Source of the DNA: Marinomonas pontica
GTDB taxonomy: Bacteria; Pseudomonadota; Gammaproteobacteria; Pseudomonadales; Marinomonadaceae
DNA: 64,000 nucleotides
Direction of reading: 5' to 3'
Assembly: GCF_026191375.1 (NCBI RefSeq)
Contig: NZ_JAODTL010000054.1
Location: 62,001 to 126,000, forward strand
Shown here: in pieces, positions 47,095-53,410 of the stretch
Numbering within the stretch: position 1 is the stretch's first letter
How the letters are laid out: each line of letters begins with the position of its first letter
Program-made: the position numbers and the translations under genes
The notes under the pieces: model-generated
The model's database searches: none
Told to the model about the DNA's origin: nothing
The model's input: the letters and a program-made list of their open reading frames with translations, nothing else

Positions 47095-47193
47095 TAGGTT
47101 ACGATTTTAAACCAATAGACACATAAAGCTGACATTGTTCTATCCTTATTAGAGGGATAATAACGAAAACAAATTGGCTCTATGGAGACGTCT

Positions 47194-49203
47194 ATGTCTT
47201 GGTTCAAACGAAAAACATTAACGCAATCTGATTCCGCAGCACACAGTGACGGCGTTAGAATTCTTCAAGTAGCGCAGTCCGAACTGTCTGAATCTAGTCT
47301 ATCGGCTCTGAAATTCCCCGAACACAAAACACAACTTATTTTAGCGTTCGTTTCTTCCAATCTGGATTTTGAAAGCACCGTTGAAAACATTCAACGTTAC
47401 ACGCCCTTTTGTGACAAAGTAGTCGCTGTTATGACCTCAGGTGAACTCAACAGTCAACAAGCCAACTTTTACCAAACAACGGATGGCAAATGGGATTCCA
47501 TAGTATTACAAAGTTACAGCGATGAATTATTCGATGCCATCGAGATAAAGACCGTCGCGTTACATTGTGAAGATTTAAAACAAGGCAAAACATCAAAAAG
47601 CAAACCAGAACGAATTCTAGCGATTCAGTCAGAAATTGAAAAAATAAACCTAAAAATGGCGGTCAATTATCAAGACACCATCGCCATCACCTTCATTGAT
47701 GGACTATCGTCCAGTGAAAACTTCTTTATGAAGGCATTGTACGACAGCCAACGTTTTCCCTGCCATTTCATTGGCGGCTCAGCCGGGGGGAAATTAGACT
47801 TTAAACAAGCGTCGGTTTACGACGGCAGCAAAGTAGCGCACAACAGCGCCGTTGTGATCTTCACTAAGCTAGCTGACAATATCCGCTATGGTATTTTGAA
47901 AACGCACAACTTCCAAAAGACCAAACGCTCATTCTACATTGCAGAATCCGATCCACAACGTCGTACAGTTACCACCGTTATTTCCAAATCCACGGGAAAT
48001 ATAGTGAACATTGTCGATCATTTGTGCGACTACTTTAAATGCCAACCTCATGATCTAAACACAAAACTGAACAGCCACTCCTTTGCCGTTGAAATCGGCA
48101 ACGAGTTATTTATTCGATCAATCGCCAGCATCGATTTGGAAAAGAAAGTGATTCACTTCTTTTGCGATTTGGACTTCGGTGACGAGCTTATCCTAGTGGA
48201 GGCCAAAGGGTTTGCAGACAGCACCAAGCAAGCGTTTGATGAGTTTATGAAAGGCAAACCAAAGCCGGTTGCCATGTTGGCAAACGACTGTATTTTACGC
48301 CGCCTGAACAACGCCAACGCACTGAAAGACCTCACCGCTTTTCAAAACATCAAAGCCGCTGGGTTCTCCACATTTGGCGAGCTCTTAGGCGTACACATGA
48401 ACCAGACACTGACCGCACTCTTTTTGTTCCGAGTCACCAAAGACGAGCCTTTCTCAGACCCCATTGTTGATAATTTCCCGATCCATTACAGCTATTTCAA
48501 AGAGTTCTTCACACTGTCAAAACTGAATAGCTTGATGCAAATCAACCGTTTACAAGCGGATCTTATTAAGTACCTTTCTGAATATCGCCCTTTGCTTGAA
48601 AAAGTAGTGAGCAGTTTTAATCAAATCACTGAATATTCTCAACAGACAGAAGCCATTATTAGTGATGTCAGCGGCACATTTCACGACTTAAAAAATGACA
48701 TAACCGCTCAAGAAGACGGACGTAAAGCCCTGAGTGGTAACGTTGCCCAGCTTAAAAACAACTCAGAACAGGTACTGGCCATTCTTAAAGTCATTTCAGG
48801 TATAGCAGACCAAACCAACCTGCTCGCTCTTAACGCTGCCATTGAAGCCGCGCGTGCCGGTGAAGCAGGCAGAGGTTTTGCCGTGGTGGCGGATGAAGTG
48901 CGTCAACTGTCTAAAAACACTCAAGACAGCTTGAACAAAACAGGTGACACCATTTCATCTGTGACTAAGTCCACAGGCTCTATCAGCCATTCGATTGAAA
49001 GCATGGAACAGTTTATGGCACGACTCACCGGCAACACCAGTGAGCTGACCGCGCAAATTCAGTCTCTTGGTGATGCTTCCACGATGGCCAGTCGTGACGT
49101 CAATGAAAGCATTCGCGCCATACGGGAAATGACCAACCGGATGGAGGAAATCGACAAAGAAGTCACCGTCATAGAAAGTCTTAAACAAGCTAATAATTTG
49201 TAG
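47194..49203 (+). CDS. Cytoplasmic chemoreceptor: FIST sensor fused to an MCP signalling domain
   Basis: Soluble signalling protein of 669 residues with no membrane helix. FIST_N (about 35-225, with [18 protein letters not shown] and [13 protein letters not shown]) and FIST_C (about 230-400, with [18 protein letters not shown] and [14 protein letters not shown]) form the sensor; the MCP hairpin follows with tip [21 protein letters not shown] near residues 535-555. Start is ATG 47194 with GGAG (47184-47187) six bases ahead; ATG 47182 overlaps that site. Some FIST proteins such as Pseudomonas NosP bind heme and NO. A perfect FNR-type box upstream fits control by oxygen or NO. The ligand itself is not determined. 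Confidence 0.87.
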
Positions 49204-49245: not shown

Positions 49246-49292
49246 GCAGGCTGCTATCATGCGGCTCCCACTTACACTTGGTGAAAAACAGC

Positions 49293-49952
49293 ATGCAGAA
49301 TGAATCTCTTATCCTAGAAGAACTGACCGTTTGGAGCACGCCGCTGTTCATCACACAAATGCCAGATCATGACTTTTTAAAAGACGCATTATTGAGCGCG
49401 GTTTACCAGCAAAAAAACCAACAAACCACCGCCATTGAAAGCCAAATCGCCCCTAAAGCAAAACACGCGCTGCATGAAAGCACCCTAGACTTTTTGGATC
49501 TTGCTGATGCGAATGTGATGGAGGCCAAGAGAGCATTGGAAGAACTCATCCTTGAGATCGCAGCGACTGTGAATCACGCTTTTTGGCCCGAAGACATGCA
49601 AGCTGATGCTCACATCATTGAATCTTGGTATCACGTCACTCAAAAAGGTGGCTATCACGATGCCCATTCGCACCCCAATTGTTCTTGGTGCGGCATTTAC
49701 TATCTAGAACCTGGTGATGCTCAGCACGAAGGCAACGGCGGCCTGAACCGCTTTTATGACCCTAGAGTCAACGCCGAACACTACGCGGATCCTGGCACCG
49801 CATATCTTGGTGGACAAGGCGTGTGGGACTTTACCCCTACGGACGGACAGGTCATTATTTTCCCATCCTACTTGAAACATTCAGCCCTGCCCTATTTTGG
49901 AGAAAAAGACCGAGTTGTGATCGCGTTCAACAGTATTATTGAAACGTATTAG
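49293..49952 (+). CDS. 2OG-Fe(II) oxygenase-like protein (TIGR02466-type)
   Basis: Probable iron- and 2-oxoglutarate-dependent oxygenase, 219 residues from ATG 49293 (in-frame TTG 49278 is possible). Iron ligands are likely in GGYHDAHSHPN (HxD/H..H) and KHSALPYFGEKDRVVIAFN (distal His plus the basic residue for 2OG). The middle WCGIYYLEP and the double-stranded beta-helix pattern fit the family, often described as putative prolyl hydroxylase-like. Lone gene; the substrate is unknown. Confidence 0.75.
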   Translation: MQNESLILEELTVWSTPLFITQMPDHDFLKDALLSAVYQQKNQQTTAIESQIAPKAKHALHESTLDFLDLADANVMEAKRALEELILEIAATVNHAFWPEDMQADAHIIESWYHVTQKGGYHDAHSHPNCSWCGIYYLEPGDAQHEGNGGLNRFYDPRVNAEHYADPGTAYLGGQGVWDFTPTDGQVIIFPSYLKHSALPYFGEKDRVVIAFNSIIETY

Positions 49953-50158
49953 CGGCACTTCTCGCAACGCATCTCCTACCAAGCCAGTATCAATAAAACA
50001 TTACTGGCTTAGCCTAACCGCTTCGATTACGCTGTTCACTCATGTTTTTACAAGAAATTTCATAAGTTTCCATTCAAACATTCACAATAGATCGTTATTT
50101 GTAGTAATTTAACAAGCTATGATCTTTATGCAATGTGGCCATCACTATGGGGAAGTCT

Positions 50159-50767
50159 ATGCGTTTCCAGTTTGATCAACTCAGCGCGAATCAACGCTAC
50201 CACCTGATCACTCAAACTATCACTCCACGCCCAATTGCGTGGATTCTAACCAAAAACGAAAACGAGAGTTTCAACCTAGCTCCCTTCTCGTATTTCGCAC
50301 CTGTCTCCTCGGACCCAGCACTGGTCATGGTGTCCATTGGCAACAAATCCGCCAATCAAGCAAAAGACACAAAACACAATTTGCTGCGAGAAAAGGAATG
50401 TGTTTTGCATATTCCCAGTGAAGCACTGATGAACGCCGTGAACGAAAGTGCGGCCAATTTACCTTATGGTGAATCTGAGCTACCTAACACGCATGTCTCG
50501 CTGGCCGACTTCACTAAAACACTACCGCGTATTCAACAAGCCAACGTGGCCATGCACTGTCGGTTGTTTGACATACATTCGCTGGGCAACGCCTCTTTTC
50601 AAGCGGTGTATTTAGAGATACTGGACGTGCATGTTGAAGAAGACCTGATCACAGAAGCAAATTCTCGAATTTATATTGATAACAAAAAGCTTAACCCGCT
50701 TGCCCGACTCGGTGGCGATGACTATGCACTCGTTGGCAAGACAGTGACGATGAAACGTCCTAATTAG
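50159..50767 (+). CDS. Flavin reductase-like / FMN-binding split-barrel protein
   Basis: FMN-binding protein of 202 residues, with TPRPIAWILTKNENESFNLAPFSYF and VSSDPALVMVSIGNKS, motifs of the flavin reductase domain fold (DIM6/NTAB group). GGGG (49149-type site at 50149-50152) six bases before ATG 50159 decides the start over GTG 50135 and ATG 50147. The 871-residue cNMP/acyltransferase/SGNH protein follows after 27 bp, so the two are probably co-transcribed. Confidence 0.83.
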   Translation: MRFQFDQLSANQRYHLITQTITPRPIAWILTKNENESFNLAPFSYFAPVSSDPALVMVSIGNKSANQAKDTKHNLLREKECVLHIPSEALMNAVNESAANLPYGESELPNTHVSLADFTKTLPRIQQANVAMHCRLFDIHSLGNASFQAVYLEILDVHVEEDLITEANSRIYIDNKKLNPLARLGGDDYALVGKTVTMKRPN

Positions 50768-50794
50768 GGCATCACAGATTTGAGGTAAACAAAG

Positions 50795-53410
50795 ATGGAC
50801 GTAAAAAACCACATAACCACTTTTCCCTTCATGGCCGATGTAGACGCTGAGCTGATGTCATCCCTTACGGATTTGGCTAGCATAAAAACACTAAAAGCGG
50901 GAGAAATATTGGCCAAACAATTTGAAATAGGTCAGCACATCTATTTTTTACTTGAAGGCGAAGTCGCGATTTCTGTACCGCTTCAGGACACAGGAAAATC
51001 TTACAATGTCGGCATGATCAGCCACCTCCTTTCCCCTATCGGTTGGTCAGCCTTTCGTCATCCGTCTCGTTATGCCACTACTTTTACGGCAACCAAATCG
51101 TCCAAACTCATCCTATGGCCGATTGTCGAATTGCAAAAAATACTCGACGCCAATTTATCGTTTGCCTCCCGTTTTCTGCAATTTGTGTATCAGGAATCGT
51201 TACCCGTCTTAACTAACGTGCAAAACCAGACACGACCCTTCTTTTCAAACGAGTCCTTGGCATTTGAAGAAACGCGTCCCTTGCTGGATTCCGAAACACA
51301 AGTACATGCACTCAAAGACGCAATTGGCTTGCTCAATTACGCCCCTTTTTGTGAAACCTTTACGCAGGCTGAAATTCATACGCTTGCTAAAAAATCGTCC
51401 ATTTTATTGGCTCACCAAGGAGACATTCTTAGCCAACAGGATCAACCTGCCGACGGCTTATACTTACTCATCAAAGGTAAGGTCGTGGTGAGCTATCAAA
51501 CCGATTCTGGCGACATCATTACAACGCGCACCATCGCACGTGCAGGCACCGTATTAGCTTGGGCTACCCAAGATGACGAGATGAAAAACCGCACTTCAAT
51601 CATCTCCTCCAGAGACAGCAGCATCTTGTTTATTAAACGAGATGATCTACTCGAAATGTTTCAAGACAGTCCAAAATTTGCGGTGAAATACTTATATCGC
51701 CTGATTTGGCTGATCGGTGCCCATTTGCTCGCGGCGAGAATGCGCTATTTATCACAGATAGCCAATGACGAAGTGCTAGCAGTCAGCAATGTCATTGAAC
51801 AGAATGCCGCGTTATTACCGGTTAGCTCACCACTTTATAAAGTCAGTGAGTTGCTTAAAAGCGCCATCACCACCGACGAAGCCTTCGGTGTACTGTACAA
51901 ATGCTTGCACTTTGGCTGCGTTCTAGAACGCACAATATCCGGCATGTGTCTGGATATTTTAAAAGACCTGCAGAGGGAAAATGCGTTTTATCGACATCTG
52001 CAAAATGTCTATGACACCATCAACAACTTACCGAAGGACACCCCAGCACTTGATGCACGACGCCTTGGAACAGAGCTGTTCAAGCAAGCATTCCAACAGG
52101 TGCCTTACGTCATAAAAGGCCTGGAAAACTTACCCAAGAAAGCCGGCTCCTTATTTATCTACAACCATTTATTGGGTTCACCAACAAACAGACTACCGAA
52201 CGGCTTTCGCTTTTCTATGGACGCTCAATTCATCAGCGCCATGCTGATCGACAATGAATACGGTATTTCAGGGCAACGAGTCGTTCGTCGCAGTAAAGAA
52301 AGTGAATTCTGGCGCGACGACTTCTATGGTCGCTTTGGCAATATATTCATCAATAGTTGGGAAGACCTCACCAAAGACACCCCTGAATACGATGCCTTTA
52401 TCAAACAGTCACAAGAAACCTTACGCCAAAATTTCCCTTTGATGATTTCACCGGAAGGGCAAAGTTTCAGCACCCAGCAATCTCCAGGGGCACTACTGCC
52501 ACACGCCTTTGAGCTAGCGGGTTCAATGGGAAGTGAAGAGCCTTGGATTGTCCCGATCGTCGTTGCAAACTTTGATAAACGTGCCGATCACAACATCTAT
52601 ACGGTCATCATCAAACCCGCGTTTAAACTGTCCAGCAAAGTCGATTACCAAGACAAAGAAGCCTTTCATCAATTCTTGCTTTCCTACCAAGAAGAATACA
52701 AAGGTTATGTAAACGAAGCGGTCGAGCTGTCACGAGAAATTCGTCAGTACCCCATTTTCAGTGGTAAAAATGGTTACCGATCCAATGTTATGAGCCTGAA
52801 TCAGATCGATGTGGAATTTGAGTCGGATGTACGAGAGCTTGAGTTCCATCTCGCCCATCAGATTTACAAGGAGCGCCCTGTCGCTTTTTACGGTTCCTCA
52901 ACCATGCGGTTATGGAGTGACTTTAGCCATAACTTCCGAGAAAAAGACGGCATCAATTTAGGCTTTGGGGGAGCAACACTCGAAGCGTGCGTCTACTATT
53001 TTGAACGCATCATTTTACCGCATAACCCACGATCGTTGGTCATCTACGCTGGGGACAACGACATCGGCAATCATTGCGACACGAACAAAGTGGTTGAGTT
53101 GTATATTGAGCTATTACAGAAGATCGATCGGCATTTGCCTGGCATTCCAGTAACCTTGATTAGCATAAAATGCAGTCCAGCACGCCTAAAAATGCGCAAC
53201 ACCATCGAAAAGACCAACACCCTATTAGCGCGTTTGGCCAAAACACGCCCTAATACGCAATACATAGATCTTTTCTCCACCTTGCTAGATAAAAACGCTG
53301 AGATAAAAGAAACCTTATTCGAAGGTGATCGCCTGCACCTCAATGAAAAAGCGTATGCGTTATGGACAAAACAATTACTGGAAACCGAAGACTTTATTTT
53401 CCAAAAATAA
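50795..53410 (+). CDS. Four-domain fusion: two cNMP-binding-like folds, acyltransferase-like domain, SGNH hydrolase
   Basis: Cytoplasmic-looking protein of 871 residues with no signal peptide or membrane helix. Two cyclic-nucleotide-binding-like domains (about 15-130 and 185-300) keep the Arg regions (SRYATTFTA; KNRTSIIS) but lack the canonical FGE glutamate. After a helical linker, an acyltransferase-like domain (about 430-640) has IYNHLLGS, without the HxxxxD aspartate, and ISPEGQSFS, like the PlsC PEG motif. The C-terminus (about 690-865) is an SGNH/GDSL hydrolase with catalytic Ser in FYGSSTMRLW, oxyanion Asn in YAGDNDIG and Asp/His in DRLHLN. This suggests ligand-gated lipid remodelling, but that is inference. 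Downstream of the flavin reductase gene. Confidence 0.8.
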   Translation: MDVKNHITTFPFMADVDAELMSSLTDLASIKTLKAGEILAKQFEIGQHIYFLLEGEVAISVPLQDTGKSYNVGMISHLLSPIGWSAFRHPSRYATTFTATKSSKLILWPIVELQKILDANLSFASRFLQFVYQESLPVLTNVQNQTRPFFSNESLAFEETRPLLDSETQVHALKDAIGLLNYAPFCETFTQAEIHTLAKKSSILLAHQGDILSQQDQPADGLYLLIKGKVVVSYQTDSGDIITTRTIARAGTVLAWATQDDEMKNRTSIISSRDSSILFIKRDDLLEMFQDSPKFAVKYLYRLIWLIGAHLLAARMRYLSQIANDEVLAVSNVIEQNAALLPVSSPLYKVSELLKSAITTDEAFGVLYKCLHFGCVLERTISGMCLDILKDLQRENAFYRHLQNVYDTINNLPKDTPALDARRLGTELFKQAFQQVPYVIKGLENLPKKAGSLFIYNHLLGSPTNRLPNGFRFSMDAQFISAMLIDNEYGISGQRVVRRSKESEFWRDDFYGRFGNIFINSWEDLTKDTPEYDAFIKQSQETLRQNFPLMISPEGQSFSTQQSPGALLPHAFELAGSMGSEEPWIVPIVVANFDKRADHNIYTVIIKPAFKLSSKVDYQDKEAFHQFLLSYQEEYKGYVNEAVELSREIRQYPIFSGKNGYRSNVMSLNQIDVEFESDVRELEFHLAHQIYKERPVAFYGSSTMRLWSDFSHNFREKDGINLGFGGATLEACVYYFERIILPHNPRSLVIYAGDNDIGNHCDTNKVVELYIELLQKIDRHLPGIPVTLISIKCSPARLKMRNTIEKTNTLLARLAKTRPNTQYIDLFSTLLDKNAEIKETLFEGDRLHLNEKAYALWTKQLLETEDFIFQK

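Follow-up and report, generated by a model that had tools for sequence, protein, structure and literature searches.

A 64,000-nucleotide stretch of Marinomonas pontica DNA (contig NZ_JAODTL010000054.1, positions 62,001 to 126,000; hereafter the window) carries a gene for an 871-residue protein in which two cyclic-nucleotide-binding (CNB) domains, a helical linker, a PlsC-like acyltransferase and an SGNH hydrolase are joined in one chain. A serine esterase is tied to the CNB-CNB-acyltransferase core of this protein in 66 of 67 core loci: 44 carry the SGNH hydrolase as a fused domain, two (both Bacteroidota) carry it as the next cistron, and 20 have an adjoining esterase of the CE7/AXE1 type instead. 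We rate at about even the chance that the protein is a gated acylation/deacylation pair, that is, a regulated acyl-ester cycle housed in one chain. The gene and its parts, numbered along the window, are as follows.

50795..53410, + strand: fusion gene, CNB-CNB-linker-acyltransferase-SGNH, 871 aa, ATG start (from the open reading frame (ORF), Pfam and a structural model)
50795..51229, + strand: CNB1, residues 1-145; cassette G-[WI]-S...P-x-R-[YF], with Arg92 kept and the Glu of the GE motif absent
51287..51769, + strand: CNB2, residues 165-325 (Pfam, model); cassette Arg and Glu unconserved
51770..52102, + strand: helical linker, residues 326-436, predicted by the model and without a Pfam match
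52103..52630, + strand: acyltransferase domain, residues 437-612; H458 (52166-52168), D476 (52220-52222), PEG at 553-555
52631..52864, + strand: C-terminal helices and connector, residues 613-690; the fusion point or cistron boundary in relatives
52865..53380, + strand: SGNH (GDSL_2) hydrolase, residues 691-862; S702, G723, N755, D845, H848

Linkage of the core to a serine esterase

The 44 fused loci comprise the 35 copies from the genus Marinomonas, a second copy in genome G010 (L021), and L075-L079, L152, L156 and L157. The split arrangement is found at L093 and L170. In UBA7330 (L093) the core ORF of 647 aa ends in tandem stops, TAG and TAA, and 9 bases lie between the first stop codon and the ATG of a 207-aa SGNH ORF, while in Persicobacter sp. 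JZB09 a single base separates the core and SGNH ORFs, which use different frames. A core without SGNH occurs in four genome families, and there an AXE1 esterase, unrelated to SGNH, adjoins it. This clade counts 21 genomes, and AXE1 sits beside the core in 20 of them. The pair is divergent at L118, L120, L134-L136, L153 and further loci; at L132 it is convergent and overlaps slightly, and at L133 another gene intervenes. In G438 there is one gene between core and AXE1. In G1048 the C terminus of the core runs off the contig, so that its SGNH-less status is putative.

The identity of these neighbours is consistent. All five that were scanned match PF05448 at 93.8-141.6 bits (cut-off 21), at E 1e-26 to 3e-41, and the neighbours match PDB chains of CE7 acetyl xylan esterases and cephalosporin C deacetylases at E 9e-46. 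Moreover, S211, D297 and H325, presumably the Ser/Asp/His catalytic triad, are invariant in 11/11 sequences. AXE1 was counted genome-wide in 14 of the 21 genomes: 13 hold exactly one, the neighbour of the core, and G397 holds none. On the SGNH side, five of seven genomes covered by this count have no AXE1, the window genome lacks it, and AXE1 was found in none of the SGNH-bearing core loci examined.

As a control, the AXE1 profile A4 was searched against 369 Gammaproteobacteria, with matches in five genomes at E 1e-20. The AXE1 of G296 and G404 (484-532 bits) adjoins the core, but both are rows of A4. Those of G123, G191 and G217 are more distant (79-105 bits) and lie outside the genomes with a core match. 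Core matches for this comparison come from a sample equal in size and in its listed genomes, where G123 was matched only by a stand-alone SGNH.

A tree of 42 cores, which holds the window copy and 12 more of the 35 from the genus and leaves out L148-L150 and L170, unites the AXE1 rows and G397 in a single clade (100/98), opposite which the SGNH rows are grouped as well (100/98). It should be read with caution, as some branches are long (L075 with L093) and the composition is uneven. The topology suggests one esterase exchange event. Within the AXE1 clade the linkage has outlasted several changes of gene order. That one esterase fold has been swapped for another supports a pair of acyl transfer and ester hydrolysis. 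The first-pass annotation had proposed that these two activities belong together, and both the adjoining SGNH cistron in two Bacteroidota and the non-homologous AXE1 in the SGNH-less clade speak for it.

Two other explanations draw on the same linkage. In one, core and esterase have no joint function, being neighbours by history, and the fusion arose by chance and became fixed. The single swap event and the sparse distribution of the core would fit this. However, unfused adjacent cistrons have been kept in two Bacteroidota loci, AXE1 stays close through at least three arrangement changes, the esterase motifs are conserved and, by our estimate, a single AXE1 in a genome of ~4 Mb would fall within 5 kb of the core by chance in ~0.25% of cases. 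We regard shared history without shared function as quite unlikely. In the other explanation the esterase strips a short, acetyl-like ester and the acyltransferase adds a different chain to the freed hydroxyl, so that the outcome is one-way remodelling and not a reversible switch. The linkage data fit this too. Moreover, the AXE1 neighbours match short-ester deacylases, namely the CE7 families named above, and among the PDB matches of the SGNH domain is an entry named sialate O-acetylesterase / lysophospholipase L1. However, the sequence gives no indication of which reaction comes first, and copies exist whose acyltransferase is apparently dead; we hold one-way exchange to be unlikely.

Catalytic residues and sensor domains

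The first-pass annotation had listed two CNB-type domains, an acyltransferase and an SGNH hydrolase, and this list proved right. PF00027 matches the protein in two stretches (65.6 bits, cut-off 27.5) and PF13472 matches at 54.3 bits (cut-off 32.9), whilst the acyltransferase is recognised by its predicted PlsC fold. The PF01553 score of the window protein, 14.4 bits, is under the cut-off of 23. Among five core or fusion proteins scanned from relatives' loci three pass (L132 at 38.9, L075 at 27.5 and L118 at 26.5) and L021 narrowly misses at 22.4. A whole-protein AlphaFold2 model built with 18 relatives has a mean pLDDT of 83.8 and a pTM of 0.76, and its best structural matches in the PDB are the tandem CNBs of PKG and of PKA regulatory subunits. 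The acyltransferase modelled in isolation with 30 relatives (pLDDT 90.9) aligns with Thermotoga maritima PlsC (5kym) at Z 17.3 over 194 residues. The 13 matches ranked next, at Z 8.5-13.7, are for the most part GPAT, PatA and LpxM entries, one of them (7zkq_T) being titled only as a complex I intermediate, and later rows go down to 5.1. A transglutaminase-like match of residues 372-434 (PDB 9y6s_8G, E 6.6e-6) spans only part of the helical linker, and we judged it to be chance.

The acyltransferase had been said to lack the Asp of the HxxxxD motif. This holds for the spacing of four residues, which the fusion family does not have, and fails for the residue itself. H458 and D476 are invariant in alignments of 18 and 12 rows, and they are separated by exactly 17 residues in all 72 distinct acyltransferase domains retained at cut-offs of E 1e-10 and 200 model positions. 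The PEG motif is invariant in three alignments (A1, A2 and A3) and in 109/109 redundant loci. The models place D476 where a predicted helix begins. Two divergent copies from Alphaproteobacteria (L156 and L157, from G1196 and G1301) have lost both residues jointly, with S for H and C for D, and keep the SGNH motifs intact. In our reading H458 and D476 form a His-Asp dyad into which a loop has been inserted, and the Asp is displaced rather than missing. This placement rests on the constant spacing, the joint loss and the predicted helix start, and not on hhalign comparisons with seven PF01553 proteins encoded in the same genome, which were weak (probability 6 to 61%) and aligned the H and D columns unreliably. 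The displaced motif would also account for the poor profile scores, and because of the H-x17-D spacing we file the domain as LPLAT-fold and PlsC-like rather than as a member of AGPAT/PlsC. With PlsC/AGPAT-type acyltransferases (PF01553; 5kym) it shares the fold, the His, the PEG motif and a downstream VPI block. Unlike them it has x17 in place of x4 between His and Asp, follows two CNBs and a helical linker, and belongs to a soluble-looking multi-domain chain.

The SGNH domain had been called complete, which is true of the window protein: S702 (assigned as nucleophile by alignment to 6njc), G723, N755, D845 and H848 give the Ser-Gly-Asn-His blocks and the DxxH motif. Across relatives the description fits less well. 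Among 57 distinct fused or split copies Asp845 and His848 are found in all and Asn755 in 56, while position 702 is Ser in 52 and Thr in five; all 39 distinct stand-alone relatives have Ser702. To judge by these residues, the SGNH enzyme may be weakened in a few fused copies. The motif set is the same as that of the stand-alone GSSS-type family of SGNH/GDSL_2 hydrolases (PF13472), from which the window domain differs in sitting behind an acyltransferase and in having GSS instead of GDS in block I, as do some fused or split copies in carrying Thr702.

These residues bear on a further alternative, in which the esterase does the work, under the control of the CNBs and of an acyltransferase fold that serves chiefly to bind lipid or acyl-CoA. 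Such a regulated hydrolase would agree with the sub-threshold PF01553 score of the window protein and with the G1196 and G1301 copies, where H458 and D476 are lost together and the SGNH motif set is kept. It agrees poorly with the retention of H and D in 72/72 domains and of PEG in every redundant locus, and also with the fact that the core stays while the esterase part is swapped or moved out. We think it unlikely.

In CNB1, G-[WI]-S and Arg92 are present in 11/11 rows and the Glu after the Gly is absent in 11/11; in CNB2 neither the cassette Glu nor the Arg is conserved. With the Glu missing from both and the Arg from CNB2, binding of cAMP is doubtful, and the CNBs may have another ligand or a structural role. 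The linker (residues 326-436) has the highest identity of six segments, once tied, in 16 of the 17 rows of alignment A1, which suggests a role in signal transmission. Tandem CNBs of PKA regulatory subunits and PKG are the closest structures according to the model. Unlike those, the fusion cassettes are without the GE Glu, and the effector is an enzyme within the same chain.

Several observations weigh against a switch of two opposed activities. The core of G397 has no detected AXE1, although it lies at a contig edge in a genome that is 85% complete. Two SGNH-bearing genomes do hold an AXE1, ~1 Mb away in G010 and, as a weak match, ~20 kb away in G427. The 20 AXE1 linkages are not independent, because they form a single clade on the tree. 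The core frame is broken in G404 (L120) and G1056 (L149), where the neighbouring AXE1 is still open. The acyltransferase of the two alphaproteobacterial copies L156 and L157 looks dead beside an intact SGNH domain, and Thr takes the place of the SGNH nucleophile in five of 57 relatives; thus neither activity is kept in every member. Lastly, the canonical cAMP-binding Glu, and with it a complete GE...R phosphate-binding cassette, is absent from both CNBs.

Distribution and gene neighbourhood

The first-pass annotation had given the positions of the fusion ORF and of a flavin reductase ORF upstream of it, and both are present there. The fusion ORF is real and not a chance reading frame: a near-full-length copy was found in 35/35 Marinomonas genomes, at 58-100% identity, with the locus mostly syntenic and off islands, and an AGG-type ribosome site lies directly 5′ of its ATG (by eye). 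Named records of the genus (L038-L074, one of them Maribrevibacterium) were left out of these counts as duplicates. One of them, from Marinomonas rhodophyticola (L068 6001-8614), is split over two frames, either a real break or a sequencing error. The second copy in G010 is 33% identical. None of 21 genomes from other genera of the same order has the fusion. Among the matches listed (the best 80 of 229 relatives, so that more outliers may exist), the same architecture occurs beyond the genus in Ca. Dadabacteria (L075), SAR116 (L076), SAR202 (L077, cut off by a contig edge before its start) and two single-cell genomes of Alphaproteobacteria (L078 and L079). Flammeovirgaceae UBA7330 is listed too, with its separate cistrons, and L156 and L157 are further fused alphaproteobacterial loci.

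Sampling at higher ranks found the core in 4/369 Gammaproteobacteria, the window genome included, in 5/398 Pseudomonadota, three of them Marinomonas, in 5/337 genomes of the class of L076, itself included, and in 1/247 of the class of L093, which is L093 itself. In g285, the genus of G404 and G1056, 9/22 genomes lack the core at the threshold used. The distribution of the core is thus wide but sparse, over several phyla. A plasmid or phage origin was rejected: a single plasmid record, a Persicobacter megaplasmid, carries a relative, and no phage matched at E 1e-20.

A role as a cyclic-nucleotide-triggered defence effector, like those of Pycsar, was also considered. PADLOC models of PycTIR-type effectors match residues 17-64 at E 2.6e-7 to 2e-4. 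However, these matches are limited to a piece of CNB1 such as any CNB could give, and a TIR domain is absent. Moreover, the gene is present throughout the genus and off islands, phages are unmatched at E 1e-20, and no cyclase was seen by eye among the ORFs of 46-58 kb. We rejected this explanation as highly improbable.

The flavin reductase had been proposed as an operon partner of the fusion gene.

50159..50767, + strand: flavin reductase-like ORF (PF01613, 65.8 bits, cut-off 27), ATG start; a GTG at 50135 is also open

It ends 27 bp before the fusion ORF and stands beside the fusion in 29 of the 35 genus loci, being missing in six (L027-L029 and L031-L033). At distant loci it was found in 0/19, several of which have short flanks (L077, L136, L152-L155). 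A partnership in this sense does not hold up, and the reductase is probably a co-transcribed bystander outside the conserved system. Further upstream lie a putative 2OG-Fe(II) oxygenase (49278-49952, + strand; PF13759, with TIGR02466 just under its cut-off), which is often syntenic in the genus, and a 673-aa protein in which a FIST sensor domain is joined to a methyl-accepting chemotaxis signalling domain (47182-49203, + strand; PF08495, PF10442, PF00015). Elsewhere, genes resembling a pair, which we take to be ATP-grasp and alpha-E, lie near the core at L118 (8060-10443, in G296, 59 bp downstream) and L076 (185-3414, SAR116), and likewise downstream, by eye, at L134.

A possible ligand-gated acyl-ester switch

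We infer that both enzymes would be catalytic, that they would act on a common substrate and that the CNBs would gate them; the substrate and ligand are suggested in the same conditional sense. In the proposed mechanism, the two CNB-fold domains and the strongly conserved helical linker would gate the PlsC-type acyltransferase. The latter would use His458/Asp476 and PEG to acylate an acceptor molecule, which is probably a lysolipid or some other polyol. The coupled serine esterase, whether covalently or operonically linked, would take acyl or acetyl esters off again within that pool, and the protein could thereby move a lipid or metabolite from one state to the other.

CNB-gated acyl enzymes have precedents in neuropathy target esterase, which joins CNB to patatin, and mycobacterial Pat, which joins CNB to GNAT. 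As in the fusion, CNBs are there attached to an acyl-ester or acyl-transfer enzyme; unlike them, the fusion has other catalytic folds and pairs a transferase with an esterase. The Pat model matches only the CNB of the fusion protein (E 1e-4). The AXE1 of relatives differs from known CE7 acetyl xylan esterases and cephalosporin C deacetylases (PF05448) in its linkage to a CNB-acyltransferase. No title or abstract opening in the literature covered describes the CNB-CNB-acyltransferase-SGNH architecture, most subscription papers being outside that coverage.

More tentatively, these loci may represent an undescribed and widely scattered class of ligand-gated acyl-ester switches, in which a CNB-CNB-linker-PlsC-like core needs an opposing serine esterase and the fused SGNH can be replaced by a CE7 enzyme next door. 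The esterase swap would amount to a natural experiment, since a common substrate is to be expected for unrelated esterase folds that have served one partner, and this opens the substrate to testing. If the switch is real, both directions of an acyl-ester reaction would lie in a single chain under a nucleotide-type sensor, and the protein would be a cytosolic acylation counterpart of the kinase-phosphatase bifunctional proteins.

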